IMG/VR virus record: IMGVR_UViG_3300042485_001870 | Location: 1-64,000 of that record | From: a virus | Reading direction: 5' to 3' (one strand) | Length of the DNA stretch: 64,000 nt | In this document: piece after piece, positions 299 through 38,666 of the stretch | Layout of the letters: every line of letters begins with the position of its first letter | Numbering within the stretch: position 1 is the first letter of the stretch | Notes under the pieces: model-generated | What the model saw: only the letters and a program-made list of their open reading frames with translations | Told to the model about the DNA's origin: nothing | Databases searched by the model: none | Translations under genes and position numbers: made by a program

Positions 299-331
299 TT
301 TGCTCAAGTACAAAATAAAAGACTATCTTTG
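299..331 (+). promoter_or_regulatory. Bacteroidetes-type promoter for the early region
   Basis: TTTG at 299-302 and TATCTTTG at 324-331 are separated by 21 nt. This fits the Bacteroidetes sigma-A consensus (TTTG, about 19-21 nt, TAnnTTTG). The start would fall near 338, at the foot of a GC-rich hairpin. The -33 box lies in a 14-nt sequence (295-308) that also occurs at 149-162, where no good -7 box follows. Confidence 0.6.
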
Positions 332-337
332 TTCTGC

Positions 338-664
338 AATCGGGGGTAAAGCCCCACTGCAAAAGTTCTTTCTAGGTAGTTTCACAATCACGTTTAAAAA
401 CTGATTAACGCTGAAACTGATAATGCGAAATGTAGACATACTACATGAGTAGCGCTAAAGATTATCTGCCGAGCCAATAAGCACCCCAAAACCAACACCA
501 TCACTAGCTTGAGGGTATATAAAGAAGCTAGGGAAGTAGTTACCACTTACATAGGTAGCGTCTACCTTTCAGCAACGGAATCCGATGTGAAATACATAGG
601 TTGGTACTTTTAAGATGTCTTATCTGTTACCTTCTTACTCACACGATAGCCAAACATATTAACC
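338..664 (+). ncRNA. Putative structured leader RNA of unknown class
   Basis: About 330 nt without a credible gene, starting at the predicted transcription start and ending just before the first early gene. Helices visible by eye are GGGG/CCCC closed by TGCA/TGCA (335-361), AGTTTCA with TGAAACT, GATAAT with ATTATC enclosing ATGTAG-ACATA-CTACAT, CTAGCTT with AAGCTAG, and AGGTAG-CGT-CTACCT. The region ends with CATATTAACC (655-664), the same ten bases that end two of the hammerhead elements downstream. It does not match tmRNA, RNase P, a group I intron or a riboswitch that I can recall. It could be a regulatory leader, a structured phage RNA, or an untranslated leader with chance helices. Confidence 0.4.
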
Positions 665-680
665 ATTAAAATTAAATAAA

Positions 681-896
681 ATGAACACACAAATTTTTGA
701 CCAAATTTCTTTCAATGTTAAAACATTACAATTCATCATGTACATTAAGATTTTAGGCAGTCAAGAGCAATTTAACATTCCACATATGAAAGCACAATTT
801 CTTATTGAGGATGTTAATTTATCAAGTACTTATAAAATAGATACCGAAATAACAAAAGAATATATCTATTATATACCTACAAAAAAACAAGGTTAA
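681..896 (+). CDS. Small hypothetical protein, first early gene
   Basis: 71 residues, starting at ATG 681 after an A-rich leader (ATTAAATAAAATG) with no Shine-Dalgarno, as in the other genes of this block. The product is mixed alpha/beta with no recognised motif. The frame ends in KKQG, and its TAA stop lies inside the GGTTAA strand that forms stem I of the ribozyme at 891-958. Ribozyme folding and translation termination therefore share the same bases. Function unknown. Confidence 0.6.
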   Translation: MNTQIFDQISFNVKTLQFIMYIKILGSQEQFNIPHMKAQFLIEDVNLSSTYKIDTEITKEYIYYIPTKKQG

Positions 897-958
897 CTGA
901 CGATGGGGTAAATCCCCGAAATGTTCACGAGGATAGACGGGCTATCCGCATATTAACC
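891..958 (+). ncRNA. Hammerhead-type ribozyme candidate A
   Basis: Stem I is GGTTAA (891-896) with TTAACC (953-958), six pairs. It encloses CTGACGA (897-903), an extra T, stem II GGGG/CCCC (905-917) with loop TAAAT, then GAAA (918-921). Stem III starts TG/CA and carries a GGATAG/CTATCC hairpin (931-947). The T951-A952 step before stem I is the expected cleavage site. CUGANGA plus GAAA joined by three stems is the hammerhead core, with stem I open (type I). Oddities are one unpaired T before stem II and no obvious tertiary loop in stem I. Cleavage would leave a 31-nt leader before the gene at 984. Confidence 0.72.
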
Positions 959-983
959 AATTTAAATTATTAAATTAAACAAC

Positions 984-1247
984 ATGGAACACAAGCACCC
1001 ACAACCAATGCACACTATTATGACATTTCTTCGTAGTGAAATTACTGATGACCTAGAAAAATGTCTTGATATTGCAATCACCCTAGTTGATTATTCAGAT
1101 GAATTAATTGACATGATGAAGGAAGATAAAGAGATGGCTAAAACGACCCTTATGCATGATTTTAACGGATTGTTCACCCACTACGGGCTTAAAAAAGCCG
1201 ATGAGGATTTCTTACCTAGATTGAGATTAAATAACCAATTAAACTAG
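984..1247 (+). CDS. Small acidic hypothetical protein
   Basis: 87 residues, acidic and probably mostly helical, with a Met-rich N-terminus (MEHKHPQPMH) and a run of Asp/Glu around residues 20-50. It begins 31 nt after the predicted cleavage point of ribozyme A, behind an ATTAAACAAC leader, and is followed five bases later by the next gene. No family recognised. Small acidic early phage proteins often bind host proteins, but nothing in the sequence proves this here. Confidence 0.6.
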   Translation: MEHKHPQPMHTIMTFLRSEITDDLEKCLDIAITLVDYSDELIDMMKEDKEMAKTTLMHDFNGLFTHYGLKKADEDFLPRLRLNNQLN

Positions 1248-1252
1248 ATAAA

Positions 1253-1447
1253 ATGAAAAACACTTTACGAACTGCACAAATGATTACCCTTTTTAGCGGT
1301 ATTATGCTAGGCACATCTGCTTTTGTAGTTGGTGCTACCATGACAATGGATAACCCAATAAAGCATAATATGATACTTTTAATCGGGTTTGCTGAACTGC
1401 TTGTCATATTCTCACTTGTATCAATTTTCACCACTAAATCTAAATAA
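1253..1447 (+). CDS. Small two-helix membrane protein
   Basis: 64 residues with two predicted transmembrane helices (about 9-29 and 38-58) joined by a short polar loop. It starts after CTAGATAAAATG, five bases behind the previous gene, and one base separates its stop from the next start. The topology would suit an inner-membrane early protein such as a superinfection or envelope modifier. It lies far from the lysis block, so holin function is less likely. Confidence 0.6.
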   Translation: MKNTLRTAQMITLFSGIMLGTSAFVVGATMTMDNPIKHNMILLIGFAELLVIFSLVSIFTTKSK

Positions 1448-1448
1448 A

Positions 1449-1682
1449 ATGATGGACATAATAATTGAAAGAAACAAAATCAGTGAAGTAACAAACGAAG
1501 GATTCACTGCACAAAAAGTAGTAGAAATCAAAGAGAAATCGGTATATGGTGGTACTCTTTGTTATCCTAATAATGAGACTGCACACTTATTTGCTGAAAT
1601 GATAAATAAGAAAACATTCAGTGCTAGAGATATCAGTATCATGATAGATTTAGGATATAGGATTGAGATTATTAAATTATAA
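1449..1682 (+). CDS. Small hypothetical protein
   Basis: 77 residues. The open frame extends back to 1389, inside the previous gene, but ATG 1449 directly follows the leader CTAAATAAA and gives normal spacing, so I take it as the start. Predicted alpha/beta protein with Ile- and Glu-rich strands near both ends. No motif recognised. It sits in a run of genes separated by about ten bases or less and is probably co-translated with them. Confidence 0.55.
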   Translation: MMDIIIERNKISEVTNEGFTAQKVVEIKEKSVYGGTLCYPNNETAHLFAEMINKKTFSARDISIMIDLGYRIEIIKL

Positions 1683-1693
1683 AACTAAACAAA

Positions 1694-1945
1694 ATGACAA
1701 AGCAATTTAAAATCGGCGAATATGCCGTTGGTGGTATTATCAAAGTATCCAAGATAAAAATTAAGGATGAACATTTTACTGACCATGTAATGATTGAAGC
1801 ACTAGATTATACCACCAAAAAAGTGGTAGTAAGTTCTAGGTTTTTTGATTGGGGTGACGAAGCCATGAGCAATTTTTTAAATGAACTTACTAGCAGTTAT
1901 TATGCTGATAAAATATTAGACTACATTAAAACCAAATTAAACTAA
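1694..1945 (+). CDS. Small hypothetical protein
   Basis: 83 residues, lysine-rich, predicted beta strands in the first half (KIGEYAVGGIIKVSKIKIK) and helices at the C-terminus. The first half resembles the start of a small OB- or SH3-like barrel, but no family can be named. The start ATG follows AACTAAACAAA, the usual leader in this block, and the stop is five bases from the next gene. Confidence 0.55.
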   Translation: MTKQFKIGEYAVGGIIKVSKIKIKDEHFTDHVMIEALDYTTKKVVVSSRFFDWGDEAMSNFLNELTSSYYADKILDYIKTKLN

Positions 1946-1950
1946 ACAAA

Positions 1951-2157
1951 ATGACAAATTACGAACAAAAATTACTAACCGATTTAATGGATGTAAATTG
2001 GATGATTAAAGAAAACAAAGCCAATAAAGAGATGGCAAGATTTTTAAGAATTGCTTATTATAAAATACAAGATGATTTGAGAGATTCAATGGGCGATGAT
2101 AAGTATGAAACATTTCTTAAAGGGGGCAGAGAGATGTTTGCACCCGTAAAAGGTTAA
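1951..2157 (+). CDS. Small helical hypothetical protein ending in ribozyme B
   Basis: 68 residues, predicted all-helical, charged. Its last codons (PVKG, then TAA) run into the GGTTAA strand of ribozyme B at 2152-2157, repeating the arrangement at the end of the gene at 681. Cleavage at the ribozyme would leave this message intact to its stop codon and release the DUF932 message downstream. No function can be assigned. Confidence 0.55.
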   Translation: MTNYEQKLLTDLMDVNWMIKENKANKEMARFLRIAYYKIQDDLRDSMGDDKYETFLKGGREMFAPVKG

Positions 2158-2210
2158 CTGACGAGCGATTAAATATCCGAATTCTGCTATGTCTATAGCG
2201 GAAATTAACC
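2152..2210 (+). ncRNA. Hammerhead-type ribozyme candidate B
   Basis: The same six-pair stem I (GGTTAA 2152-2157, TTAACC 2205-2210) surrounds CTGACGA (2158-2164), a short stem II (G-C, then GAT/ATC with one bulged C) with the same TAAAT loop, GAA (2179-2181), and a nine-pair stem III (2182-2190 with 2195-2203, GTCT loop, one G-T). The pair that is A-U in a standard hammerhead next to the cleavage site is T-A here (2182/2203), so both bases changed together. Cleavage is expected after A2204. The altered pair may slow it. Confidence 0.62.
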
Positions 2211-2247
2211 AAAAGGTGAGGCACACCTTATAAACTGCAACTATTTT

Positions 2248-3162
2248 ATGAATATCAAAATGAATGACAAATTTAATGCGTTTGGATTAACACAAGAGCA
2301 AACAGAATCAAAATTAAGCCATCTTTTAGCCAATTCTAGACAAGATAATGTCTTGGTGACATCCGAGGTCGTTCCATTGGAGAAACTGACAGGAATGCCA
2401 TCTAGAAGAGGATTAGAGAATGCTATTATCTGCGAAAATCAAATCGTGAATGTGGTATCTAATTCCTATGGACATTTACCTAATGAAAAATTCTTCCTAG
2501 GTGTGGAGGAAAAGTTGATTGATGCTGACATCTATTATCAGCAACGTAGTATCAATCGTGACAATCGCTCATTCGTTGTGGATTATATCCTAGCAGATGA
2601 CCGCTACAAAATTGAGGTGAAAGGTGACAAGGACATTTTGCGTCCAATGTTACGCTTTGTGAATTCTTACGATGGCTCATGTAAGACTAGCGGTTCCTTT
2701 GGATTTTGGCGTAAAGTGTGTGACAATGGCTTACATGTAGCACAAACACACATTGGATTCTCTGTTAAGCATTCGGGTGCTATTGCTGACATCGTAATGC
2801 CTAAATTGGATGAGATTGTAAGTCAGTTCATGGACAATGAATTTTTCACCCTTAAACGCAAATTTGAGGTACTTGCAGAGCGTCCCGTATATAACTTGGA
2901 GGATTATGTTAAAGTGACCGCAAAGAGCCTAGGAATGTTTAAATATGAGATGTCTGATAAGAATCCTGAACCTAGCGCAAACGCTCGCTTTGTATTGGAT
3001 GTGATTGACCGCGAATCAAGACAATTGAATACACGTCCTAACCAATGGATTGTATACAATGCATTCAATGAATTATTACATAGTAAATTGAAGAAAACTT
3101 TTGACCAACAGCGCACGTTGGATGAAAAATTATTTGAAACTATCTACGCTGACATTAATTAA
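2248..3162 (+). CDS. DUF932 phage/plasmid-like protein
   Basis: 304 residues, the largest gene of the early block. The centre carries the signature region of the DUF932 / phage-plasmid TIGR03299-like family: a segment around residues 109-170 with RYKIEVKGD, LRFVNSYDGS and FGFWRKVCDNGLHV, followed by a helical C-terminus. The family is widespread in phages and plasmids. Its biochemical role is not established, though a link to DNA metabolism is often suspected. The gene starts 43 nt after the predicted cut of ribozyme B and is closed by a strong terminator at 3171-3196, so it behaves as its own unit. Confidence 0.8.
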   Translation: MNIKMNDKFNAFGLTQEQTESKLSHLLANSRQDNVLVTSEVVPLEKLTGMPSRRGLENAIICENQIVNVVSNSYGHLPNEKFFLGVEEKLIDADIYYQQRSINRDNRSFVVDYILADDRYKIEVKGDKDILRPMLRFVNSYDGSCKTSGSFGFWRKVCDNGLHVAQTHIGFSVKHSGAIADIVMPKLDEIVSQFMDNEFFTLKRKFEVLAERPVYNLEDYVKVTAKSLGMFKYEMSDKNPEPSANARFVLDVIDRESRQLNTRPNQWIVYNAFNELLHSKLKKTFDQQRTLDEKLFETIYADIN

Positions 3163-3170
3163 TCAATAAA

Positions 3171-3196
3171 GGGGACTGAAATATGTCCCCATTTTT
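3171..3196 (+). terminator. Rho-independent terminator after the DUF932 gene
   Basis: GGGGAC (3171-3176) pairs with GTCCCC (3185-3190) around an eight-base loop, followed by ATTTTT. It lies nine bases after the stop codon of the preceding gene. Confidence 0.75.
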
Positions 3197-3217
3197 AAAC
3201 TTATTAAATTAAACAAA

Positions 3218-3349
3218 ATGAAACTATCAAAATCAATTAAAAAAGACAAATTTAAATTAACAATTTTACCAACTATTCAATACTACTATGCTTATCGCAT
3301 AGTGGTTATTGTATGGCTGAACTATGAATTACAATTTTATATTAAATAA
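3218..3349 (+). CDS. Very small basic/hydrophobic protein
   Basis: 43 residues, ATG 3218 after AAATTAAACAAA, the same leader as its neighbours. The N-terminus is lysine-rich (about residues 1-14), followed by a Tyr-rich hydrophobic stretch (about 20-41) that could be one membrane helix. It lies between the terminator at 3171 and the next gene at 3362. The leader and spacing support it as a real gene. Function unknown. Confidence 0.45.
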   Translation: MKLSKSIKKDKFKLTILPTIQYYYAYRIVVIVWLNYELQFYIK

Positions 3350-3361
3350 AAATTAAATAAC

Positions 3362-3562
3362 ATGAAAGATTTATTTGAATGTCCTAATAAATTACCTAAA
3401 AATATACAAGCTATTTTAAAGCGATTTAACGACCTAGAAATTGAAAGGGGTATACAATATGCCGACCTCATCCAAATGGGCAAAGAAATGGCTAATTATG
3501 GCTATAGCTTCGATTTCTATCTTGACTGCGTACCTTATAATCTTAAAAAAATAAAAAATTAA
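3362..3562 (+). CDS. Small hypothetical protein
   Basis: 66 residues, predicted helical, with a cysteine at position 7 and another near residue 57. The start follows AAATTAAATAAC. Five bases separate its stop from the next gene. No family recognised. Confidence 0.55.
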   Translation: MKDLFECPNKLPKNIQAILKRFNDLEIERGIQYADLIQMGKEMANYGYSFDFYLDCVPYNLKKIKN

Positions 3563-3567
3563 ACAAA

Positions 3568-3762
3568 ATGAAAAAATTTATTACAACTGCAATTTTATTC
3601 GCTCTATTTTTTAGCGCATCTGCTAACGATGTTATTATTAAGGATACCACAATAAACAAAGTGGTTTATTCAATGTATCAAGGTGCTAGAGGTGGAAGGT
3701 ATATTATTGTTACTAGCAGTACAGGAACGACATACCGCAAGTATTTTAAAAAGCAAGGTTAA
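3568..3762 (+). CDS. Small exported protein ending in ribozyme C
   Basis: 64 residues with a clear signal peptide: MKK, a hydrophobic core of about 12 residues, then a small-residue cleavage region (SASAND, around 19-20). The mature part of about 44 residues is rich in beta strands (DVIIKDTTINKVVY, GRYIIVTSSTGTTY), so it probably acts in the periplasm. Like the genes ending at 896 and 2157 it ends in a Lys-Gly tail (KKQG), and its TAA sits in the GGTTAA strand of ribozyme C. A superinfection-exclusion role is possible but unproven. Confidence 0.6.
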   Translation: MKKFITTAILFALFFSASANDVIIKDTTINKVVYSMYQGARGGRYIIVTSSTGTTYRKYFKKQG

Positions 3763-3843
3763 CTGATGATGGAATAAATTTCCGAAATGGTGGGTGGTAG
3801 TAATTAGACTGCCACCCTTTATAGATTACCTAACATATTAACC
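3757..3843 (+). ncRNA. Hammerhead-type ribozyme candidate C
   Basis: Stem I GGTTAA (3757-3762) with TTAACC (3838-3843); core CTGATGA (3763-3769); one extra T; stem II GGAA/TTCC (3771-3783) with loop TAAAT; GAAA (3784-3787); stem III begins TG/CA and contains a nine-pair hairpin (GGGTGGTAG with CTGCCACCC); TA precedes stem I. Stem II differs from candidate A at two pairs and pairs perfectly in both, which is covariation. Cleavage after A3837 would leave a 20-nt A-rich leader before the gene at 3858. Confidence 0.72.
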
Positions 3844-3857
3844 AAAAAAAAAAAATT

Positions 3858-10979: not shown

Positions 10980-11591
10980 ATGAAATTAAACATCAACCGA
11001 ATTGATTTAATTAAGAAGATAACAATTGGATTTCCCGATGGTTATGGCGCTGAAATAGGTTCGTTTAAGGGTGAGTTTGCAAAAGAAATAGTTGAAAATT
11101 GGGGTGGCAATTTATTTATGGTAGATGTGTGGATGGGACTCGGGGATGAATATAAGGACGCAAGTAACCATAATATCCATACAAACGCCTATGCAGATGC
11201 AATGAAATCTATAGAAGGATATGAAAATAGAGCAGTAATGGTAAGAGGAAGCTCTGAAGTGGTATCCGAGATGTTTAGAAATGAATCGCTTAATTTTGTA
11301 TATATTGATGCCAACCATGCGTATGATTTTGTTATTCAAGATATTGAATTGTGGTATCCAAAGGTAAAAAAAGGGGGTTATTTACTTGGACATGATTACA
11401 TAGATATGGATTGGGATAAAGACCCTCATTTTGCAGATTGCTATGGCAAAAACAAGCACATATATTCATCTACAGGGTTTTATTTTGGTGTGTTTGGCGT
11501 CAATCCAGCAGTGGATGAATTTTGTAAAACCAACAACTATGAACTTACCCTAACAAATGAGTGGTTTGGAACATGGATGATTAAAAAATAA
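10980..11591 (+). CDS. SAM-dependent methyltransferase
   Basis: 203 residues, class I Rossmann methyltransferase of the Methyltransf_24 type often found in surface-glycan clusters. Motif I is GAEIGSFKGEFAKEI near 20-34, followed by MVDVW (end of strand 2), FVYIDANHAYDFVIQDIELW near 113 and GGYLLGHDYID near 135. It resembles the methyltransferase at 37328-37915 in motif order. First gene of a four-gene + strand operon, three bases from the next gene, so a sugar hydroxyl is the likely substrate. Confidence 0.8.
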   Translation: MKLNINRIDLIKKITIGFPDGYGAEIGSFKGEFAKEIVENWGGNLFMVDVWMGLGDEYKDASNHNIHTNAYADAMKSIEGYENRAVMVRGSSEVVSEMFRNESLNFVYIDANHAYDFVIQDIELWYPKVKKGGYLLGHDYIDMDWDKDPHFADCYGKNKHIYSSTGFYFGVFGVNPAVDEFCKTNNYELTLTNEWFGTWMIKK

Positions 11592-11594
11592 ATT

Positions 11595-12485
11595 ATGAAA
11601 TACCCCAAAGCGTATGTCTTATATGCCAATGAAAACTATATAGATATAGTTAATGCTTGTGCTAAATCAATTAAAACTTTCAGCAACCTTCCTGTTTTTG
11701 TCTATCTACTTAATTGTGATAAAACCGTTTTGGAAGCTGATAAAACCATTAATTGGGAGTGTGATATAGATGCAAATGAAAAAGAAGAAATGTACCTTAA
11801 GCAAAGTGATTTAAACTTCTATGTAAATAGGGCTAGTAAAAGAATTTATAGGCTAATAAAAGAACGACCACTTATTGTAAAGCATGCTCTAAAAATGGCT
11901 AATCTTGTGTGTTATGTGGATTGCGACTCCATAGCTACAAAGCATATAGATAGAGCCTTTAAATTATTTGATGAGCATAGCTTTTATCCATTTTTTTCTG
12001 AAGGTATTTATGATTTTTTAATGATGAATGGCAGGGGCGGGGCAACAGGGAATGACCTATCTACTACATTAGAACATCCAGCTTGTGAATTATTTAGTAT
12101 TAATCAAAACAATCGTAAAAAATACAGGACATCAAATATATTTGTTGCAGGGCAAAATTGTATTGAATTTTTAGACACTTGGTATTGGATGATGATACAT
12201 CCTAAAATACTTGCAGACCCTGAATTTTATGCCCCATTTCAGGATGAAACCATTGCAAACTGCCTGTTATTTAAGCATAATATTCAAAATGGACTTCCTT
12301 ATGTTTATACTAATGGTGGATTAGATAGGATAGATGAAGTGCTTAATATTGGATTTAATGGTTCAGCACAATACATAGCACAATGGTTTAAGATTCCCGC
12401 AAAAGAAGAAGATTTACTAGTTTTTCATGGAGAAAAAAGAACTGCTGAAATGAATAAAATGATAGAAAAATTAAAAACTACATGA
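11595..12485 (+). CDS. GT-A-type glycosyltransferase
   Basis: 296 residues. It starts with a strand-helix unit (KAYVLYANENYIDIVNACAKS) typical of GT-A nucleotide-sugar binding. YVDCDSIA near 110 contains the DxD-type metal motif (DCD). The family is not certain; it resembles GT8-like or unclassified phage/algal virus enzymes. It overlaps the next gene by four bases, so it probably acts in the same pathway as the fused glycosyltransferase. Confidence 0.7.
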   Translation: MKYPKAYVLYANENYIDIVNACAKSIKTFSNLPVFVYLLNCDKTVLEADKTINWECDIDANEKEEMYLKQSDLNFYVNRASKRIYRLIKERPLIVKHALKMANLVCYVDCDSIATKHIDRAFKLFDEHSFYPFFSEGIYDFLMMNGRGGATGNDLSTTLEHPACELFSINQNNRKKYRTSNIFVAGQNCIEFLDTWYWMMIHPKILADPEFYAPFQDETIANCLLFKHNIQNGLPYVYTNGGLDRIDEVLNIGFNGSAQYIAQWFKIPAKEEDLLVFHGEKRTAEMNKMIEKLKTT

Positions 12486-14551
12486 AGAAAATAAAATTAC
12501 TTTACTTAATGCCTCATTGCAGTACAGGAGGTATGCCCCAATTTGTTCTTAAACGTATTCAAACACTATTAGATTATACAGATGCATTTGAGGTATTTGT
12601 TATTGAATATCATGATTATGGGAAACATTTTCCTGTTCAACGAAATCAACTTATAGAACTTTTAGGTAATAATTTTATTAGCTTACAAGAAAATAAAATG
12701 CGTGTAATGGAAATTATTCGCACTGAAGAAATAGATATAGTTCATTTAGATGAGATGCCAGAATTAATGGATAATGATAGATTATTTAAAGATTTATATC
12801 GTAATGATAGAAAATGGTATATCGTTGAAACTTGTCATAATTCCTCATTCCGCCCTGATACAGATAAAAGATTTCATCCTGATTTATATTCTTTTTGTAC
12901 TCCTTGGCATGAGGATATTTTTGCAGGAATGGATTCTAAATTTGTAACTATACCCTACCCAATAGATAAAAAAGAAAGCTTATTAGCAATTAAAGAAAAT
13001 AAGCGCATATTCCAATCATCTCCAATTGTTCTTAATGTAGGGCTATGGACTTCTGGTAAGAATCAAGCTGAAGGAATTGAGATTGCTCGCAAATATCCTG
13101 ATATGACATTCTATTTTGTAGGTAACCAAGCTAGTAACTTTGAGGATTATTGGCGACCATTAATGAACGATTTACCGGATAATGTTAAGGTATGGGGGGA
13201 AAGAAAAGATATAGATACTTTTATGGAGATGGCTGATATATTTATGTTTAATTCTACTTTGGAGCTTAACCCATTGGTTTTGCGTGAGGCGATTGGACAT
13301 GGCTTACCAATTATAGCTAGAAATTTACCACAATATGCAGGGATGTATGATGAATATATTAATCCAATAGATACTGATTTAAACACTTTGAAATGTGATT
13401 ACATAGTACCTACTGATAATACCTCATTTACTTTTGGATTAAGACATGAAGAAGCCTATAAAAAGATATTAGAAAAGCCCATCCATCAACAAAAAGTAAA
13501 AGTTATTAACTACTATGTGGATAACCCATTTTTAGAAATTAAGGGTGTTTCTGATAGTGATTTTAAGGTAGCATTTTATGATGAAAAAGATGTATGCCAT
13601 TATGAAAATACCATTAAATCAAATAATTGGGTTAAAGTTAACAGGCAATATTACACGAAATGGACTGCCAAGGTTTGGCAAGATGGAGAACTAATTTATG
13701 AGGACACATTGGACTTGAATAACAAAAGAGTTTACATAGCCTTTGAAAGTAAAAGTTTAGGAGATACTATTGCTTGGATGCCCTATGTAGAAGAATTTAG
13801 AAAGAAACATAATTGTACGGTGATTTGCAGTACATTTTGGAATAGCTTGTTTGACTATCCAGAGATTGAATTTGTAGAACCATCGTTTGTAGTGCCAAAT
13901 ATTTATGCCCTTTATCGTATTGGTTATTTTGATAATTTAGATAAGCTACCATTAAAGCCTGTAACAATACCTCTTCAAAAGGTGGCTACAGCCATTTTAG
14001 GACTTGATTTCCAAGAAATGATACCAATACTAGCCTATAAGCCTAAAGTGGTTAAAATGGGCAAATATGTAACAATAGCGACCAATTCCACTTCAGGAAT
14101 GAAGTTTTGGACTAAAGAAGGTTGGCAAGAGCTTATTAATTGGTTAGTTTCTGATGGGTATGAGGTGTATAATGTTTCCCTTGAACCAAATCCATTTGAT
14201 AATTGCACACAAATAACCACTCCTTCCCTTGAATCTAAAATGGATTGGATTGCAGGAAGTGAATTTTTTATAGGATTATCTTCAGGTTTAGCTTGGGTTG
14301 CTTACGCTATGGGTAAGAGAGTGGTAATGATAGCTAATTTCAGTGAAGAGTTCAATGAGTTCTCTTGCATAAGGATTGTAAAAAAAGATGTTTGTCATGG
14401 TTGCTGGAACAATCCTAATTTTAAATTTGATGCTGGAAATTGGAACTATTGCCCGATTTATCAAGGTAGTGATAGACAATTTGAATGTCAAAATTCAATA
14501 ACAAGTGATATGGTTATAGAAAAAATAAAACTAATGAATGGAAAATTTTAA
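12482..14551 (+). CDS. GT4 glycosyltransferase fused to an autotransporter-type O-heptosyltransferase
   Basis: 689 residues, two enzymes in one chain. Residues 1-340 are a GT-B GT4-type domain (STGGMPQFVLKRI at the N-terminus; LNVGLWTSGKN near 184; E-rich loop NPLVLREAIGHGLPII near 265). From about 350 to the end the sequence follows the autotransporter strand-loop-strand O-heptosyltransferase family (TIGR04414; AAH, TibC): SLGDTIAWMPYVEEFRKKH near 420, a GLSSGLAWVAYAMG loop, and four cysteines (C638, C641, C657, C669) spaced like the iron finger of TibC. Relatives O-glycosylate Ser/Thr of autotransporter adhesins. The phage fibre is rich in Ser/Thr and adhesin-like repeats, making it a candidate substrate. 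Confidence 0.8.
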   Translation: MKKIKLLYLMPHCSTGGMPQFVLKRIQTLLDYTDAFEVFVIEYHDYGKHFPVQRNQLIELLGNNFISLQENKMRVMEIIRTEEIDIVHLDEMPELMDNDRLFKDLYRNDRKWYIVETCHNSSFRPDTDKRFHPDLYSFCTPWHEDIFAGMDSKFVTIPYPIDKKESLLAIKENKRIFQSSPIVLNVGLWTSGKNQAEGIEIARKYPDMTFYFVGNQASNFEDYWRPLMNDLPDNVKVWGERKDIDTFMEMADIFMFNSTLELNPLVLREAIGHGLPIIARNLPQYAGMYDEYINPIDTDLNTLKCDYIVPTDNTSFTFGLRHEEAYKKILEKPIHQQKVKVINYYVDNPFLEIKGVSDSDFKVAFYDEKDVCHYENTIKSNNWVKVNRQYYTKWTAKVWQDGELIYEDTLDLNNKRVYIAFESKSLGDTIAWMPYVEEFRKKHNCTVICSTFWNSLFDYPEIEFVEPSFVVPNIYALYRIGYFDNLDKLPLKPVTIPLQKVATAILGLDFQEMIPILAYKPKVVKMGKYVTIATNSTSGMKFWTKEGWQELINWLVSDGYEVYNVSLEPNPFDNCTQITTPSLESKMDWIAGSEFFIGLSSGLAWVAYAMGKRVVMIANFSEEFNEFSCIRIVKKDVCHGCWNNPNFKFDAGNWNYCPIYQGSDRQFECQNSITSDMVIEKIKLMNGKF

Positions 14552-15203
14552 TTGGGGTGACTCACCTGAAGAGTTCAACAAGCTGATACACAAAGAGATA
14601 TTTGAAGATAAGATGTACGAAAAGGTTTTTAAGGTGAAAGAGGGGGATGTCGTTTTTGACATTGGCGCAAGTACAGGGGCTTTTGCTTATTCTATCTTGG
14701 GTGCAAATCCAAGTCATGTTTTTTGCTTTGAGCCTAGTTACAAGGAGTTTATGACATTGGTATTAAATACTAGACAAGCGCCTGTTACCTGTGTAAACAA
14801 AGCCATATCTGGTATAGTAGGGGAGTTTAAATCAGACTATATATTTGATAATGACCAAGATAAGATATATTCTACCACTTTTATGCAAGTGATAAAAGAC
14901 TATAATATAAATAAAATAGATTTTTTAAAAATGGATTGCGAGGGTGGTGAGTATGATATTTGCAATGCTAAAAACCTATTATGGATAAAAGAAAATGTAA
15001 GCCAAATAAGTGGTGAATGGCATTTAAGCACTCCTGAATTAAAAAATAATTTCAGAATATTTAGGGAGAACTATCTAACGGCATCTAACTATAAAATATA
15101 TTCACTAGACAATTTTGATATAACAATGGGTGTTTGGTCAGATGAATTTATAGACTATTATACAGAAGTTATCGTACACATAGACAATAAAAAAGCAGGT
15201 TAA
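14538..15203 (+). CDS. FkbM-family methyltransferase
   Basis: 221 residues, FkbM type class I methyltransferase. Motif I is VVFDIGASTGAFAYSI near 38-53, FCFEP follows near 65, and IDFLKMDCEGGEYDI near 130-145 holds the typical D-x-E-G segment. Such enzymes methylate sugar hydroxyls in glycans and polyketides. It overlaps the fused glycosyltransferase gene by 14 bases. Its stop overlaps, tail to tail, the end of DUF2061 on the other strand. A second FkbM enzyme lies at 35686-36321. Confidence 0.85.
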   Translation: MENFNWGDSPEEFNKLIHKEIFEDKMYEKVFKVKEGDVVFDIGASTGAFAYSILGANPSHVFCFEPSYKEFMTLVLNTRQAPVTCVNKAISGIVGEFKSDYIFDNDQDKIYSTTFMQVIKDYNINKIDFLKMDCEGGEYDICNAKNLLWIKENVSQISGEWHLSTPELKNNFRIFRENYLTASNYKIYSLDNFDITMGVWSDEFIDYYTEVIVHIDNKKAG

Positions 15204-15418
15204 GGTTGTTTATTTTTTAGACCATAAGTAATCCATCTATACCAAATACGTTCATGGATGTAATATTGGATTGGTTTATAAACAAGTTCAGCTACTCCAA
15301 ATGCAGCTCCTACTTTTATGGAACCACTAATGCCCCACATGATTCCAAATCCGATAGCTGTACTAATAATTCTGTAGCTTATAGTCTTGGCTAAATGCCT
15401 TTTCTTTTCTACTATCAT
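15200..15418 (-). CDS. DUF2061 small membrane protein
   Basis: 72 residues matching DUF2061: the KTISYRIIST start, two hydrophobic helices (about 16-32 and 36-50), and the end YYIHERIWYRW. Its start overlaps the stop of the nucleotidyltransferase by four bases, so it belongs to the sulfation operon. The family has no established biochemical role. Coupling to APS kinase and a sulfotransferase suggests a part in sulfate handling or in placing the sulfation enzymes at the membrane (inference). Confidence 0.8.
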   Translation of the reverse strand: MIVEKKRHLAKTISYRIISTAIGFGIMWGISGSIKVGAAFGVAELVYKPIQYYIHERIWYRWITYGLKNKQP

Positions 15419-15792
15419 AAACCTAATTCTTTTCTAATTTTTGTAGCTGAAATTTCTGCCACTTCTGATGGCGGTATATATTCTATAATGTCATATCCAA
15501 CTCCTCTACCAAAGTTGACTGAAGAAATATCAGGAACAATAATAACTTGAACACTTTCATTATACCAATACTCTTTTGATATGTTTTCAAATACCTGCTT
15601 TGTAGTAAATGGATTTTTTTCATTAACCTCTCCATCTCTAACAGCAATACACACCCTTCCTCCGTCATCTAATACTTGCTGAAATAATTGTTTATGAGCC
15701 TCGTGTAAAGGTTGCCAACGACCTATAAATAAAGACCATTGACTATCTTTTCTCTCCATTGAGCTTTTAACGTGTACTTTTTTGTCCCACAT
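15415..15792 (-). CDS. Nucleotidyltransferase (cytidylyltransferase-like fold)
   Basis: 125 residues. The HxxH-type signature is GRWQPLHEAH (residues 24-33), and the C-terminal signature ISATKIRKEL is at 114-123. Both are hallmarks of the NMN-adenylyltransferase / cytidylyltransferase superfamily, to which ATP sulfurylase also belongs. It sits between APS kinase and DUF2061, overlapping APS kinase by 26 bases, so it may supply adenosine 5'-phosphosulfate to the kinase. That step is inference; the protein is much shorter than known ATP sulfurylases. An internal ATG at 15759 would avoid the overlap. Confidence 0.75.
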   Translation of the reverse strand: MWDKKVHVKSSMERKDSQWSLFIGRWQPLHEAHKQLFQQVLDDGGRVCIAVRDGEVNEKNPFTTKQVFENISKEYWYNESVQVIIVPDISSVNFGRGVGYDIIEYIPPSEVAEISATKIRKELGL

Positions 15793-16213
15793 ATTTTTCT
15801 ATTTTTTCTAATGTTTCTTCAATTGATTGATTGTCGGTATTTATTTGCATGAAATTTTCCAATTCTGGCTCTTCAAAGTCAGCAACATGGAAACCTTCTC
15901 TACCTCTAGGATTTGTATAAGTTAGGTATATCCATTTTACATTTGGCACTAAATTATTTAAATAATCTCTTGCTTCTTTATATGGATAAACAACAGACAT
16001 AACAACATCATAACTCATTCCGTTTAAAAATGCAGCAATATCACTAGCTTTCTGCAAATTTCTTAATCTACCTTCTTTACTAAAATCCTTATTATTAAAT
16101 ACCTCTCTTAACTTATCTCCATCAATATGAATGTCATATAAGTTTTCAAATTCTAATCTTTCTGCTAATGTTGTCTTACCACTATGCGGCTGACCAAATA
16201 ATACTATTATCAT
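15767..16213 (-). CDS. cysC: Adenylylsulfate (APS) kinase-like enzyme
   Basis: 148 residues. The P-loop is GQPHSGKTT (7-15), and IDGDKLREVF (30-39) with KEGRLRNL (46-53) match the APS-binding motifs of CysC (DGDNLR and D-R-ENIRR-like). The enzyme would make PAPS, the sulfate donor, from APS and ATP. The gene overlaps the sulfotransferase gene by four bases (ATGA), which ties PAPS production to its use. It is shorter than bacterial CysC (about 200 residues). A general small-molecule kinase is the alternative, but the neighbour argues for PAPS. Confidence 0.8.
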   Translation of the reverse strand: MIIVLFGQPHSGKTTLAERLEFENLYDIHIDGDKLREVFNNKDFSKEGRLRNLQKASDIAAFLNGMSYDVVMSVVYPYKEARDYLNNLVPNVKWIYLTYTNPRGREGFHVADFEEPELENFMQINTDNQSIEETLEKIEKYVGQKSTR

Positions 16214-17028
16214 TTTGTATATCTAAATTGTTGAAAAAACCATTGATAATTATCCCAAATCCACCCTGTCACCTCTTTGCCCAACAGTTGTTTAGCTCTT
16301 GATGGAACAGGCTCTAGCTTTGTACGGATGGTATGGTCACCAAAGCTTCCATATACTTCATCATCTTCTTTAGTTACTTGCTCTATGTTGTCCCAATCAT
16401 GTTGGTAATATGGTATGCCTAAATACTCGTATATTTTTACCATTGTGCTATCAGGATATAAACATAAATCCTCAAACTTTACAAATAAAACATGCTTATC
16501 TATATCTAATCTAAACATCTCCTGCAACCTTTCAATAGCTAATCCTACGGGCTGTGATTGTGACCAAATGTCTATACGCTTTGGTACTGTTGTTCCTTGC
16601 ATTTGCGCCCAATTTAAAATAGCATTTGCTTTGTCTGGATTCTTTCTATAGTTGTTTTCCATTGATGCAAACACATCTCTTAAATCTCTAACCATCACAA
16701 TAATTTTTGGGTTAGGTTGTATGAAATTTAAAAAGTCATAGTGTATGCCCCATCCTCTTGATTTGTCTACAATATACTTTTTATTTGTAATGGCATTATA
16801 ATAAGCTTCCATACCAAATCTACAAAAGGCTTGGAAAGCCGTTTTCATTATCGCAGAATCTTGTGCTTGAAATTCAGGAGAGTCTGTGTAATTACCTCTT
16901 GCAGCAAATACTAATTCTAAAACGCCACTTGTAGGCGTTGCATAGATATCTGAATTTTGAGCTAGTATGTTTTGTAAAAGTGTACTACCACTTCGGGGAA
17001 GAGAACTTTGGTAAAATATTTTTTCCAT
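16210..17028 (-). CDS. PAPS-dependent sulfotransferase
   Basis: 272 residues. The 5'-phosphosulfate loop is SSLPRSGSTLL (8-18), and the 3'-phosphate-binding region is IIVMVRDLRDVFAS (109-122), both diagnostic of the sulfotransferase superfamily. It would transfer sulfate to a hydroxyl, most likely on a sugar or a protein side chain. It lies between a GT9-like glycosyltransferase (one base upstream) and APS kinase (overlapping), so the operon seems to build and sulfate a glycan. Soluble, no signal peptide. Confidence 0.88.
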   Translation of the reverse strand: MEKIFYQSSLPRSGSTLLQNILAQNSDIYATPTSGVLELVFAARGNYTDSPEFQAQDSAIMKTAFQAFCRFGMEAYYNAITNKKYIVDKSRGWGIHYDFLNFIQPNPKIIVMVRDLRDVFASMENNYRKNPDKANAILNWAQMQGTTVPKRIDIWSQSQPVGLAIERLQEMFRLDIDKHVLFVKFEDLCLYPDSTMVKIYEYLGIPYYQHDWDNIEQVTKEDDEVYGSFGDHTIRTKLEPVPSRAKQLLGKEVTGWIWDNYQWFFQQFRYTK

Positions 17029-17029
17029 A

Positions 17030-17908
17030 TTATTTTTTCAGTGATTCAATAATTTTATTTACATCAAATATCTCCTCTTCGTTATTATACGGAAACTCCA
17101 AAAGATTACCTGAAATATCATACTTCTGCAAGAATGAATGTCTTAACTCTGGCTTTTTTGTTTCATTGTTAGCTAAAATATTATCATGTATTTCATGTCC
17201 AAATACAACAGGTGTATTAACTACCCAACATACTGTGCTTGGCTTATTCATTGCAGCAGCAGCATGGTGAGCAAAGCTATCCATAAACAATCTTTTCTCA
17301 CTTAAATCTATAAGAACTGCTAATGCTCTAAAATTATCTGTTACTGAAAATGTTCCATCAAATGATGGTTGGTCATCTCTTCTAATATGAATGATGTTGT
17401 AATCATTTCTAAATTCTTCAATTACTCTTGCTACAACACTTGTAGGTATATCTCTTGCCCATGAGTATTTTAATTCTTGTTGAGCTGCGCCACCATTGGT
17501 TTGCAATAAAAATATTGGCTTGTCTGAAACAAACTTCTTACTAAAAAAGCTTCGCTCTCTATCGGTAAGAAACAATTCTGGACTAGTTGATTCGGGTAAA
17601 TCTAAACCAAGCATCTTACACCATGTATGTGTTAAATGTTCTGTTTGTAATAAATGCCCTGCTTCTAGGTACGGGTCGTGTCCAAAGAATTTAAAATCTT
17701 TTCCATCAATATAATCTTGGTAAAAATATTGAGTTTGACCAAATGTAAAAGCCCTATCAACGTGTGGATTATCAAGAAATACTTCAGGATAACCGCTTAA
17801 CACGATTAATTGGGCTTCAGGATATTGTTTTTTAATTTGTTTGCAAATAACGGTGGACATGATACATTTACCAATTCCGCCATTAACTTGTAAGATAGCT
17901 ATCTTCAT
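17030..17908 (-). CDS. GT9-like (heptosyltransferase-type) glycosyltransferase
   Basis: About 292 residues. The frame extends to a TTG at 17929, but ATG 17908 gives the normal MKIAILQVNGGIGKCI start and leaves room for the promoter box at 17927-17934. N-terminal strand-glycine loop (QVNGGIGK), a middle LLQTNGGAAQ segment, HIRRDDQ, and MDSFAHHAAAAMNKPSTVCW near the end are the GT9 (WaaC/WaaF-like) landmarks. It opens the sulfation operon and reads away from the fibre gene. The sugar donor and acceptor are unknown. Confidence 0.75.
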   Translation of the reverse strand: MKIAILQVNGGIGKCIMSTVICKQIKKQYPEAQLIVLSGYPEVFLDNPHVDRAFTFGQTQYFYQDYIDGKDFKFFGHDPYLEAGHLLQTEHLTHTWCKMLGLDLPESTSPELFLTDRERSFFSKKFVSDKPIFLLQTNGGAAQQELKYSWARDIPTSVVARVIEEFRNDYNIIHIRRDDQPSFDGTFSVTDNFRALAVLIDLSEKRLFMDSFAHHAAAAMNKPSTVCWVVNTPVVFGHEIHDNILANNETKKPELRHSFLQKYDISGNLLEFPYNNEEEIFDVNKIIESLKK

Positions 17909-17926
17909 GAATATTTGGGTTTTGCC

Positions 17927-17958
17927 CAAAGTTATGAAGTAACTATTAAATTAAAAAA
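17927..17958 (-). promoter_or_regulatory. Promoter for the sulfation operon
   Basis: Read on the - strand, a T-rich -33 region, 19 nt, then TAACTTTG (17927-17934), a perfect TAnnTTTG. It lies 18 bases before ATG 17908. The -33 box is only TTTT. Confidence 0.4.
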
Positions 17959-17974
17959 TTAATTTAATTAAATA

Positions 17975-18304
17975 TTATTTTGGTTCTGCTGGAGGTACAT
18001 AAGCCAACACTTCTGCTGCTAATGTATCTAACAACGCTTGGTCTAGGTTAGCTGCCTCTACTCTAAATGATTCAGCATCAGGAGTGTTTGGTAACCAATC
18101 AGAAAACAATGTGTTAAAGTTATTAATAGCGTGATATGTTTTTGGACTAGCGTAACCTTCAGGCTTGCCTGCCCATACATTATCAACTACTGCATCAACA
18201 TCTGCTTGAAAAGCTGAAATTGGTGCTTGTACGTTTTTTGTGTCAGATATTGCTTGAACTGTTCCGAATCCGAAGATGTGAAGTGTGTTCCATAAATTTG
18301 CCAT
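17975..18304 (-). CDS. Small hypothetical protein of the fibre module
   Basis: 109 residues, helical, with a proline-rich end (YVPPAEPK). It is the last gene of the fibre operon, 50 bases after the Asp-box protein. It could be a fibre assembly chaperone or a small tail component. No family recognised. Confidence 0.55.
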   Translation of the reverse strand: MANLWNTLHIFGFGTVQAISDTKNVQAPISAFQADVDAVVDNVWAGKPEGYASPKTYHAINNFNTLFSDWLPNTPDAESFRVEAANLDQALLDTLAAEVLAYVPPAEPK

Positions 18305-19969: not shown

Positions 19970-22900
19970 TTATTTCAATTTAGCTTCTAGTTTAGCAATT
20001 CTTTCTTCTAGTTTAGATAGTTTATAAGTATTTACGTGGTTGTAATCAACTTGCTTATATCCCTCTACATTATTGTGTACTGCATTTGGAAGTACTTTTT
20101 CTACTTCTTGTGCTATGTAACCAAAACAAGATTTATTATCCGTATCTTTTTTCCAAGAGAATTGACTAAAATTAATACCATCATAAGCACTAAATGTGTT
20201 ATGAATATTTTTAAGTCTGCAATCTGATGTTTCAAAAAATGCTGTGGCAAACATACAAGAACAAGCACAAGAGTTATTTGTATAAAAAGTACAAGCTGCT
20301 GAAGCAGTGATGCTACAACCAAAAGCTCCCGACCAAGCCCCACTAGCGGTATTACTTGAACCTCCTAAAACAGCAGAACAACCACCTGATGCTGCATTTG
20401 AAACACCTCCTACAACTACACTACGATATCCTGAAGCTGTATTACTATCACCACCGCCTACAAAACTTCTACCACTACTTGCGGTGTTACTTGCTCCTCC
20501 TGCAACTGTTGTAAAATATGTTCCACTAGCTGTGTTTGATGCACCCCCACCTACTGTATTGTAAGCAATACCTGAAGCTGTGTTACCAACACCACCTGAT
20601 ACTGTTGAGCTTAAGGTTGAAGCTGTATTACCTGTACCACCTGACACTGTAGAAGTAGCTCCTGAAGATATGTTACTAACACCACCCCCTACAACAGAAC
20701 AAACACCTGATGCTGTATTTGTAACACCTCCTCCTACTGTTGAATAACTATTTGTTACTGTATTAGTACATCCACCTGCTATTGCTCCCCAAGCACCTGA
20801 AACAACATTTGCTCTACCACCACCAATAAATCCGTGACAACCTGCTGATATTACATTTTGATAACCACCTGATATTGTTGATGCATAGACACCACATATT
20901 CTACTGTTATAACCTGCACCAATAAATGAATAATATCCTGAAGCTGTATTGTCTGCTCCTCCTACTACTGCTGCTTTATAAGGTCCACAAGCTCTATTAC
21001 CTGTACCTCCAACAACAACAGCAGCCCAAGAAGTAGCATTATTACTATATCCACCACCTACAAAAGTACCGCAATTTGTTGATGTATTGCCAAATCCGCC
21101 TGAAACCACTGATGCACAACCTGAAGCTGTATTAGCATATCCACCTCCTGCTTTTGAAAATACACCTGAAGCTGTGTTTGATTGTCCACCACCTATTGAT
21201 GTGTGGCTAGCTGATGCTACACTACCATATCCACCTACAATTGATGCACAAGAACCTGATACATTATTATTTTGACCACCACCAATAAATGCACGATATC
21301 CTGAATTGGTATTAGTTCTTCCTCCTACAACTACATTTTCTGTTCCTGTAACTCTATTTGCATATCCTCCTGATATTGTTGAAGCATAACCACATACTAT
21401 ATTATTATATCCACCACCAATAGTATCATAAGTACCTGATGCTGTATGTGCTCTACCACCTGCTACTGTTGTAGCTTGACCATTTGATGTGTTACTAATA
21501 CCACCACCTATTACGGCATAAATAGCTGATGAATTATTTCCGCTACCTCCTGCATTTACTGAAAAACTACCTGATGCAGCATTACCTCCTCCGCCTCCTG
21601 CAAAAGAACAAGCACCTGATGCAGCATTAGCTGCTCCACCACTTACTGTACTATGATTTCCTGAAGCAGTATTTACTCTTCCACCTGCTATAACACTTCT
21701 GTTACCACTTACTGTATTAGCTTCACCTCCTCCTATAAAAGAAGAATAGTTTGATACAGTATTATAATATCCACTTCCAATACCTGACCAAATATAACCA
21801 ACATTATTACAAATACCTCCTGATACTACAGCATATCCTGCTGAAGCTGTATTTGTTTTACCACCGCCTATAAAAGAACAAGCTCCTGAAGCTATATTTG
21901 AAAGACCTCCTCCTATGAAAGAATCTGTTGATGAAGCAGTATTTCCACGTCCACCTACCACTGCTGAATAATTTCCTGTAGCTGAGTTTCCTTGACCACC
22001 TGCCACCGTAGAACGATAGTTACTAGCTGTGTTGGTTTGACCACCCCCTACTGTTGTCCAAAAACCTGAGGCTAAATTATTATTACCACCTCCCACAAAT
22101 GCTTCATATCCTGATGCGGTGCTAGCAACACCACTTGCAACTGCTGAACCTAAGCCTGATGCTATATTTGCACATCCTCCTCCTATAGATGAGTATTGAC
22201 CTGTTGCTCTATTCTGAAATCCTCCTCCTATTGTTGAAAACTGACCTGCTGCAAAAAATGTTGTAGGAGCTACTGAAAAAAATCCATTTGTAGTATTAAA
22301 TGTACCACCTGATGTGTTGTTTCCAATACCACCTGATATTGTTGTACCTGATGTACATCCTGCTGCGACAGAACTACAAATATAGTTACAAGTACCTGCA
22401 CCAATAAATGATGCTGTTGAATTTAAACAGTTTTTATAACCTGCTGATATTGTATTATAATTACCACTACTATTATTATACCATCCACCACTAATTGTGT
22501 TAGCATAACCACTTGCTGTGTTTGTTTGACCACCACCAATAAATGAACGAGAACCTGATGCTGTGTTTGATATACCTCCTGAAACTGTAGAAAATTGATT
22601 TGAAGCTGTATTAGAACATCCTCCTATAATAGCTGAAGTTGAACCTGATGATATATTATTATTACCACCACCTACAAAAGAGTATCCCCCTGAAGATGTA
22701 TTACCTTTACCACCTGCTATTGTACTTGATGTAGCAGGAGCATTGTTACTCCTACCTCCTGCTATTGTAACATAATATCCTGAAGCTGTATTTGATGTTC
22801 CACCTCCAATTGTACCACCATATTGACTATTTAATACATTACTTGCACCACCACCAATAGTACTTGCAGCATTGGCTCCAATAACACAAACAACGTTAGC

Positions 22901-34347: not shown

Positions 34348-34893
34348 TTAATATAATTCCCGTCCTATTAAAAGGTCATCATAATTCATTTCCATTTTTG
34401 TATTATAGGAAAATCCATTGTGTTGAATTGCTATAAAAGGGACAGATACATAATACTTTCCAAGACCTGCCAATGCCCTGTCAATATGAGCATCATCCGG
34501 TAAAGATAAGTAAGTTTCATAGAATTTTTTATTTACAATGTAGCAATGAAATCCGGAAAACTCTTTTACTGAATTATCCTTTAAAATCTCTCCTAAATAA
34601 ATACCACTTAAATATACATCAAAATCTTCAGGTTTATGCTCTAAAAAATAAGAAAAACTATTTTTGTTAGTAAAACGAACATCGTCTTCCATTATGCATA
34701 TTTCAGGCAAATTATTATCTAAAGCATACCTGACGCATTGTTTGTGTGCTAAATTTATAGCTTTCTTAACCGAATGACTATCATGAACTGCCGGAAAAAA
34801 TTTAAAATCTCTTATGCCTTGAGTCTTAAATTCCTGCATTAACATATCAAATCTAGTAGCTGAATCAAAATTATGGATTACTGCTATTTGCAT
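34348..34893 (-). CDS. GT25-like glycosyltransferase
   Basis: 181 residues. MEDDVRF near 68-74 is the acidic metal motif of GT25 (LPS galactosyltransferase-like) enzymes, preceded by LAHKQCVRYALDNNLPEICI, which fits the family pattern. The N-terminus (IHNFDSATRFDMLMQEF) matches the first strand and helix. It overlaps the exostosin-like gene by 23 bases and is the last gene of the glycan block. Confidence 0.72.
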   Translation of the reverse strand: MQIAVIHNFDSATRFDMLMQEFKTQGIRDFKFFPAVHDSHSVKKAINLAHKQCVRYALDNNLPEICIMEDDVRFTNKNSFSYFLEHKPEDFDVYLSGIYLGEILKDNSVKEFSGFHCYIVNKKFYETYLSLPDDAHIDRALAGLGKYYVSVPFIAIQHNGFSYNTKMEMNYDDLLIGRELY

Positions 34894-35689
34894 TTAGAAT
34901 GTTTTTAATCTTGTTAAAAGCCCCTTCGTATGTATAATATTCATTGTATATCTCCTTGATTTTTAACTGCTTATCTACTATCTGTAAATCAGTGTAGCTT
35001 TTTAAAATTTCCTCTATTTTACTTGAATCCTTTTCTTCTATTATAATTCCATAGTCTTCAAAATTAGCATCAAAGCAACTAATAAATTCATCTGAAATAT
35101 ATACAGGGATGGTTTCGTATTGCATACATTCTGCTATTCTAAAACTATTCAATCCATACCCCCTTGGACATAATCCGAATAATGAATGAGAGATTATATC
35201 GCAAAATGATTGTATGTCATGCTGCTTATCGGAAATATAAAAATCCTTATTCTGTATGTTAAATACATTTTCCCTAATTGGATGCGTATGTGTGCCAATA
35301 AATGATGCAAATATTGACTTGCTATGATTCCACTCGTATGAATGTGGCTTACACAATAACGGTATTTCCACCCCCGTCTTTTTGCTCATACTAAAAACCA
35401 AGATATCCAAATCTTTAAAATCAGTCATTACCCCGTCATCATATTGGCAAATAGTCCAATATTTTAAATCTTTAGGCAACTTATCTACATAGTCTTGTAA
35501 TTGCTTTCTTGCTACAGGATTATTACCATAATTATTATTTACATGATATGCTGTCCATTGAATTGGAAGGTAATGCCTTTCAGTGTTTGGGATATGCTCG
35601 TGTGAAACCCAATCTTCAAATATAATATCATTTTCCCAAGGATATATTGTATTTATTGTTGGAGTAAATTCTTCTGGTATGTGTATCAT
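34871..35689 (-). CDS. Exostosin-like (GT47-type) glycosyltransferase
   Basis: 272 residues. The C-terminal half carries the exostosin/GT47 signature: LFGLCPRGYGLNSFRIAECM followed by ETIPVYISDE (about 165-200), where the Arg and Glu contact the donor sugar nucleotide. GTHTHPIREN near 130 also fits. Related enzymes transfer glucuronic acid, GlcNAc, galactose or arabinose. It overlaps both neighbours (4 and 23 bases). Confidence 0.75.
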   Translation of the reverse strand: MIHIPEEFTPTINTIYPWENDIIFEDWVSHEHIPNTERHYLPIQWTAYHVNNNYGNNPVARKQLQDYVDKLPKDLKYWTICQYDDGVMTDFKDLDILVFSMSKKTGVEIPLLCKPHSYEWNHSKSIFASFIGTHTHPIRENVFNIQNKDFYISDKQHDIQSFCDIISHSLFGLCPRGYGLNSFRIAECMQYETIPVYISDEFISCFDANFEDYGIIIEEKDSSKIEEILKSYTDLQIVDKQLKIKEIYNEYYTYEGAFNKIKNILNANSSNP

Positions 35690-37325: not shown

Positions 37326-37327
37326 GT

Positions 37328-38649: not shown

Positions 38650-38666
38650 AAGTAAAATTAATTAAT

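Follow-up and report, generated by a model that had tools for sequence, protein, structure and literature searches.

Three hammerhead-like elements, named here A, B and C, lie between co-directional genes of a Flavobacterium-type virus, in a DNA stretch of 64,000 nucleotides (IMG/VR record IMGVR_UViG_3300042485_001870, positions 1 to 64,000; hereafter the window). We consider it likely that they are hammerhead ribozymes of a compact phage family and that they cut a polycistronic phage transcript into shorter messages. Their identity as hammerheads, which an original prediction made from the letters of the window had proposed, is strongly supported by relatives in other phages, by covariation and by a family-specific covariance model; they are of type I and have a variable stem III. 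The fold, covariation, family membership, strand and position of the elements are seen in the sequences; that they cleave themselves, that cleavage is used during infection and that it would affect gene expression is inferred.

Both the sequence and a constrained fold bear out the positions and the parts of the three elements as originally predicted (Table 1). Each has the CUGANGA and GAA core at a three-stem junction, with an open stem I that holds the 5′ and 3′ ends and with closed stems II and III. Stem I is GGTTAA/TTAACC in all copies while stems II and III differ between them. In A, GGTTAA (891-896) is followed by CTGACGA (897-903), an extra T (904) and a GGGG/CCCC stem II with a TAAAT cap; the 3′ half is made of GAA (918-920), an ATG/CAT stem III, A952 and TTAACC (953-958). 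The 5′ half of B has GGTTAA (2152-2157), CTGACGA and a stem II, G(C)GAT/ATC-C, with the same cap, and its 3′ half has GAA (2179-2181), a 9-bp stem III, A2204 and TTAACC (2205-2210). C is built from GGTTAA (3757-3762), CTGATGA, an extra T and a GGAA/TTCC stem II with a TAAAT cap, then GAA (3784-3786), an ATG/CAT stem III, A3837 and TTAACC (3838-3843). The cleavage-site residue H17 is A, hence not G, in all three, and the adjacent 15.1-16.1 pair is A15.1-U16.1 in A and C and U-A in B. Folding of the single sequences (z-scores of −1.6 for A, −2.0 for B and −3.38 for C) is compatible with a hammerhead but not decisive; compared with the fold of minimum free energy, the hammerhead-constrained fold is less stable by 1.4 kcal/mol in A, 0.2 in B and 3.1 in C.

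The family to which the elements belong was traced in other loci, mainly viral contigs (labelled L followed by a number). A covariance model (R1) built from eight relatives in other phages, with the window sequence left out, gave 108 matches including all three window copies: A at 889-960 (36.7 bits, E-value 2.6e-5), B at 2150-2212 (37.9 bits, 1.4e-5) and C at 3755-3845 (35.8 bits, 4.3e-5). Beyond these, R1 found nothing above noise in the window, also with filters off. A hammerhead descriptor that left stem I free had 92 matches when run on the window together with 1.1 Mb of viral loci, and none in the reversed sequence. A pattern scan of viral contigs with fixed CTGANGA, GAA and TTAA/TTAACC strands, in which the 15.1-16.1 pair, both closed stems and the GG opposite CC were free, yielded at least 120 stretches that fall into two classes, with and without GG. 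Among the matches listed, 66 unique ones carry the unforced GG, and 59 of these have A15.1-U16.1; in 55 of the 59, stem II and stem III each reach 3 bp or more. Among the GG-positive remainder, several are parse artefacts of the gap limits. A15.1-U16.1 is found in five of the 48 listed matches that lack GG, none of which combines it with both stems. H17 in the 66 listed GG-positive matches is C (44), A (21) or T (1) and never G. A blastn search of cultured phages with a typical element returned nothing useful because the element is too short and variable.

In the alignment of 108 rows 99.6% of the cells are paired, against 25-42% in slid controls, and 14 of the 16 pairs show double changes; 421 cells are changed on both sides as compared to 107 in shuffles. 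As this alignment was fitted to the structure, a second scan was carried out with the pattern ACTGANGAG-NNN-TNANT-NNN-CGAAAC...GTCTNNNNCA, in which the four inner stem I pairs are unconstrained. Stem I has all six pairs in each of the 81 unique matches, which between them show 33 stem I versions; stem II is complete in 79 of the 81, and the base 5′ of stem I, although not imposed by the pattern, is A in 80. We regard this free-stem-I scan as decisive for conservation of the hammerhead fold. The relatives make up a large and widespread phage family that follows a uniform plan: an A, the first strand of a stem I that is always 6 bp long, CUGANGA, stem II closed by a loop of UNANU type, then GAAA, stem III, U-H, the cut, the second strand of stem I and another A. 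The bases that flank stem I are A at the 5′ side in 131 and at the 3′ side in 133 of 135 elements, and both are retained in all 15 elements whose stem I differs from GGTTAA. Position 1 of loop II is U in all copies with a 13-nt stem II, position 3 is mostly A and position 5 mostly U. These constraints suggest that loop II may touch the end of stem I and thereby replace the usual stem I loop, as a peripheral contact for activity at low Mg2+. Base pairing of loop II with the bases that flank stem I, as a pseudoknot, was considered and rejected: covariation was not convincing, the best z-score (4.3) being at one position and not in a pairing pattern.

Some observations weigh against the proposed ribozyme function. 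Rfam models detect no hammerhead in the window, either at the gathering score or down to an E-value of 10, and none of the ~70 family members in the scanned loci reaches an Rfam gathering score. The outer stem III of A and C is limited to 3 bp, beyond which come an internal loop and an inner hairpin, a correction to the original prediction. B combines U15.1-A16.1, a pair that lowers activity, with a bulged stem II. Finally, the distribution of hammerheads across the wider phage group is patchy, with at least one present in 7 of 26 related records; they are thus dispensable to the phages.

The first of these points is explained by the Rfam models not covering this variant. A background-level score in a covariance search had been named as grounds for dismissing the elements; this is what Rfam returns, but R1 finds all three. 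The missing Rfam match is also the sole point in favour of a chance likeness in an AT-rich phage, a negligible prospect that is refuted by the absence of matches in reversed controls, by covariation and by the presence of hammerheads at orthologous sites. Concerning B, the change from A-T to T-A beside the cleavage site is present as described, but the pair concerned is the core pair 15.1-16.1 and the swap is thus a defect risk and not ordinary covariation. It is the sole U-A case among 105 sequences (103 are A-U). Such a change lowers hammerhead activity and is reported to leave an active but slow ribozyme; B is probably a slow, weak copy and would be the weakest of the three. Its bulged C recurs in L049 and L088. 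The original prediction had also been concerned by the extra T before stem II and by the lack of a stem I loop. Both worries are partly answered: the extra T of A and C recurs in other phages (L015, L036, L081, L087 and others) and is thus probably tolerated, and absence of the loop is the norm in a family with an A on either side of a fixed 6-bp stem I.

Elements of the family lie nearly all on the coding strand between two genes, and the stop codon of the upstream gene typically overlaps the ribozyme, while the next ATG is usually located 16-45 nt past the cut. In a first set a sense stop codon is found at −5 to +19 of the element in 86 of 101 cases, and a start codon follows the cut by 14-45 nt in 83 of 97. 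In a second set the stop codon lies within −15 to +18 in 77 of 78 cases (25 on the opposite strand) and an ATG within 80 nt in 77 of 80 (14 on the opposite strand). This placement, which holds for most of two sets of ~80-100 elements each, supports a role in mRNA processing since such a role needs the elements to stand on the coding strand between genes. There are up to seven copies per record, and all 20 multi-copy contigs are strand-consistent. Twister-P3, another self-cleaving RNA, is found nearby on the strand of the hammerheads in L007 (42.5 bits for a gathering score of 39.9) and, just below threshold, in L127 (39.5 bits). The latter, a contig in a bacterial metagenome-assembled genome, carries in ~3 kb (L127:1-2902, minus strand) six hammerheads besides the near-threshold twister-P3.

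The window conforms to this organization. The stop codon of the upstream gene is provided in the three cases by the TAA of GGTTAA, and the leaders predicted for the downstream genes are of the correct length (Table 1). The protein encoded downstream of B is related to Flavobacterium phage proteins (54.7% identity) that carry the DUF932 annotation. The region is a putative early operon. The leader behind B holds a hairpin (AAGGTG-AGGCA-CACCTT) at 2213-2229. Similar leader hairpins with an AGGCA or AGTCA loop (of AGGYGCA type in L091) are found just past the cut in L131, L134, L136, L137 and L091, followed on the 3′ side by TATAAACTG or TATAACAGG; their stem covaries in L091 (AGTG/CACT, AGTC/GACT, AGAC/GTCT). 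The hairpin could stabilize the 5′-OH end or be a binding site for a regulator.

Table 1. Hammerhead elements, genes, leaders and terminator-like hairpin in the analysed region of the window.
Feature	Position	Strand	Description	Basis
Element A	891-958	+	Type I hammerhead; predicted cut 952/953	Core and three stems read from sequence
Element B	2152-2210	+	Type I hammerhead; U15.1-A16.1 core pair, bulged C in stem II; predicted cut 2204/2205	
Element C	3757-3843	+	Type I hammerhead; long branched stem III; predicted cut 3837/3838	
71-aa gene	681-896	+	TAA stop inside stem I of A	Open reading frame (ORF) list
Leader of gene at 984	953-983	+	31 nt, predicted after cut of A	Sequence, ORF list
68-aa gene	1951-2157	+	TAA stop inside stem I of B	ORF list
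Leader of DUF932-type gene	2205-2247	+	43 nt, predicted after cut of B	Sequence
304-aa gene	2248-3162	+	DUF932-type, phrog_21518	PHROGs, E-value 1.3e-105
Terminator-like hairpin	3171-3190	+	Behind DUF932-type gene	Terminator scan
64-aa gene	3568-3762	+	TAA stop inside stem I of C	ORF list
Leader of gene at 3858	3838-3857	+	20 nt, predicted after cut of C	Sequence, ORF list

The same positions are occupied by hammerheads in related phages, which gives further support to the interpretation of the elements as mRNA-processing ribozymes. The DUF932-type gene is encoded by 18 viral contigs and is preceded in most of them by a hammerhead whose stems are wholly changed, with stem I versions that include GTGTAA/TTACAC and GTGTGA/TCACAC. 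The site orthologous to B carries canonical A15.1-U16.1 hammerheads in L131, L132, L124 and others. Element A is the same in L131 and L147 and nearly the same in L132, and a copy related to C, with the same stem III plan, is present at L124:815-907. In this copy the branched stem III (window 3787-3836) keeps its inner hairpin and the tail CCCTTTATAGATTAYCTAACATA; it is possibly a site for a ligand or a protein. The hammerheads at L136:3512 and L137:1962 have a ~70-nt stem III with a complex fold of its own.

The junction 3′ of the DUF932-type gene features a hammerhead in L133-L137, a terminator-like hairpin in the window and in L130-L132, and GC-rich hairpins in L138-L142. This replacement of hammerhead and hairpin at one junction fits a shared role in message separation. 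It is also what would be expected if the elements were structured 3′ ends, that is, terminator or stability hairpins with a non-catalytic likeness to hammerheads, or decayed ribozymes; their position behind stop codons, the core change in B and the terminator-like appearance of some stem III hairpins go in the same direction. We consider this very unlikely, as CUGANGA, GAAA, A15.1-U16.1 and an H17 other than G are kept while all stems change, and a terminator would not need a conserved catalytic core.

Some breaks in homology lie in or just past the elements. Two relatives, L136 and L137, lose their homology to the window at 2164, within B, and regain it at 2204; an additional gene and its ribozyme fill the interval. 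L131 and L147 follow the window as far as 972, a short distance past A, and continue with other DNA. Together with the patchy occurrence of hammerheads in the phage group, these cases would agree with the elements being borders of gene cassettes, in which recombination would use the conserved core as its site of homology and the RNA cut would shield the neighbours from a newly acquired gene. Such a function appears unlikely to us. Small accessory phage genes turn over anyway, and of the junctions for which both orthologues are present, 31 of 59 with a hammerhead and 203 of 356 others keep the two adjacent, which is no clear difference. A recombination hot spot was rejected on the same test, in which there was no clear excess of breaks at ribozyme junctions.

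Separation of genes is most likely the use to which the elements are put, to judge from their placement and family. Once the transcript is made, each element would fold and, following the established hammerhead mechanism, cut itself between H17 and UUAACC. The 3′ end of the upstream message, a 2′,3′-cyclic phosphate, would directly follow the stop codon and the stable hairpins of stems II and III, and the downstream message would begin with a 5′-OH and a short leader. The genes would thus be separated, and the new 3′ and 5′ ends could alter the stability and translation of each message. The data suggest that many phages split gene messages by self-cutting RNA, instead of or beside terminators.

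Another use of the cut ends can be conceived, as the copies of one phage have stem I in common and the UUAACC strand of each can therefore pair with GGUUAA in the rest. Segments released between ribozymes would refold at their 3′ ribozyme and be ligated to a circle, or messages would be re-joined in trans, as in viroids and retrozymes. The window copies, with a common stem I and different stems II and III, agree with this proposal, and relatives selected for their protein homology also have mostly GGTTAA in stem I, with varying stems II and III. When elements are compared two by two, cross-pairing of stem I is seen in 48% of the pairs within a contig and in 7% of those between contigs. However, likeness within contigs is also higher for stem II (35% vs. 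14%) and stem III (36% vs. 9%), so shared descent explains part of the stem I sharing, and some phages hold differing stem I versions (L016). Moreover, Perreault et al. sought circular or spliced products and found none (PMC3088659). RNA joining is in our opinion quite improbable. We give equally little credit to a more general scheme for tailed phages of aquatic bacteria, in which arrays of up to seven compact hammerheads, sometimes with twister-P3, would replace terminators and promoters in a gene-separation system whose shared stem I lets messages circularize or re-join.

The terminase places the phage near the Flavobacterium elemo and Cellulophaga phages (23-29% identity). No hammerhead was found in cultured Cellulophaga phages phi38:1 and phi13:2 and Maribacter phage Panino (partial genomes) or in one region of Flavobacterium phage 6H. 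A hammerhead match with an imperfect stem II occurs at a conserved locus of 68 cultured elemo phage records. At L149:16043-16104 (NC_055853.1, minus strand) it has a GGCAAA/TTTGTC stem I and two mismatches in stem II, and an annotated ORF of 108 nt, which overlaps it on the opposite strand, may be spurious. The match in the cultured phage elemoF has two mismatches in stem II, which make it doubtful as a test object. The family is rare in bacterial chromosomes: six records match in a species-level genome collection, and the sole match among 297 Bacteroidota genomes is the record used as centre.

Upstream from the first gene, a segment of ~330 nt (window 300-665) is conserved, non-coding and highly structured; its consensus fold has 77 pairs, 18 of which are changed on both sides in six relatives. 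It has no match to Rfam, tRNA, tmRNA or cultured phages. Its 3′ end, CATATTAACC, is common to hammerheads A and C. A fourth hammerhead ending at 660 was considered on the basis of this shared sequence and rejected: upstream of it there is no core, and the segment represents a conserved RNA of another kind. Inspection by eye of the remainder of the window identified a 2249-aa protein (19970-26719, minus strand) with GTSGTSG and NTASGxxSxVGGG repeats, whose end resembles a self-cleaving chaperone domain. It is probably a tail fibre. Many genes resembling glycosyltransferases and sugar or methyl transferases are found, also by eye, amid structural genes at 10980-18000 and 34348-39985, a load that is unusual for a 67-kb phage.

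What hammerheads do in bacteria and phages has been a question since 2011. With this family, hundreds of comparable natural replicates become available at a single type of site, the gene junction, which makes the mRNA-processing idea directly testable, and it includes sites where ribozyme and terminator-like hairpin replace each other. It also represents a common phage ribozyme that annotation with Rfam models overlooks. The fixed 6-bp stem I, the flanking A residues and the UNANU loop provide a structural hypothesis for compact hammerheads that lack a stem I loop. Among the openly available papers searched, supplementary datasets (that of PMC3088659 included) aside, none describes this variant.

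Among known RNAs, Hammerhead_1 (RF00163) has the same core and type I arrangement and gives a sub-threshold score (24.7 bits in L007 for a gathering score of 34). Hammerhead_HH9 (RF02275) shares the core and also stays below threshold (28.4 bits in L016; gathering score 52). RAGATH-1-hammerhead (RF03152), which has a hammerhead core with a long stem III, reaches at best 34.8 bits (L091; gathering score 56.3), with no match in the window, and differs from the phage family by an extra 5′ hairpin before stem I. Type-SGC hammerheads, HRIMA-1, have a conserved stem I sequence, and natural U15.1-A16.1 variants of them still cleave (PMC10085705); their architecture is permuted and they come from metatranscriptomes, whereas the elements described here have the plain type I order and belong to DNA phages. 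Twister-P3 (RF03154), present on the same strand in the same gene arrays (L007, L127), has an unrelated fold and is a neighbour and not a relative. A further close system is that of the clustered prophage hammerheads of Perreault et al. (2011), which flank single genes or short gene blocks and for which cutting of long phage RNAs into gene-length messages was proposed (PMC3088659). Tandem phage hammerheads cleave in vitro and those of A. tumefaciens cleave in E. coli (PMC3088659). The present family resembles them by its several copies on what would be one transcript and by the same message-cutting proposal, but differs by one uniform compact type I plan, by its location at gene junctions with a stop codon in or beside stem I, and by its occurrence mainly in viral contigs, being almost absent from the bacterial genomes scanned. 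The hammerhead class, its clustering in phages and the idea of phage mRNA processing are thus known, while the compact variant that Rfam does not see and its precise placement at gene junctions look new.

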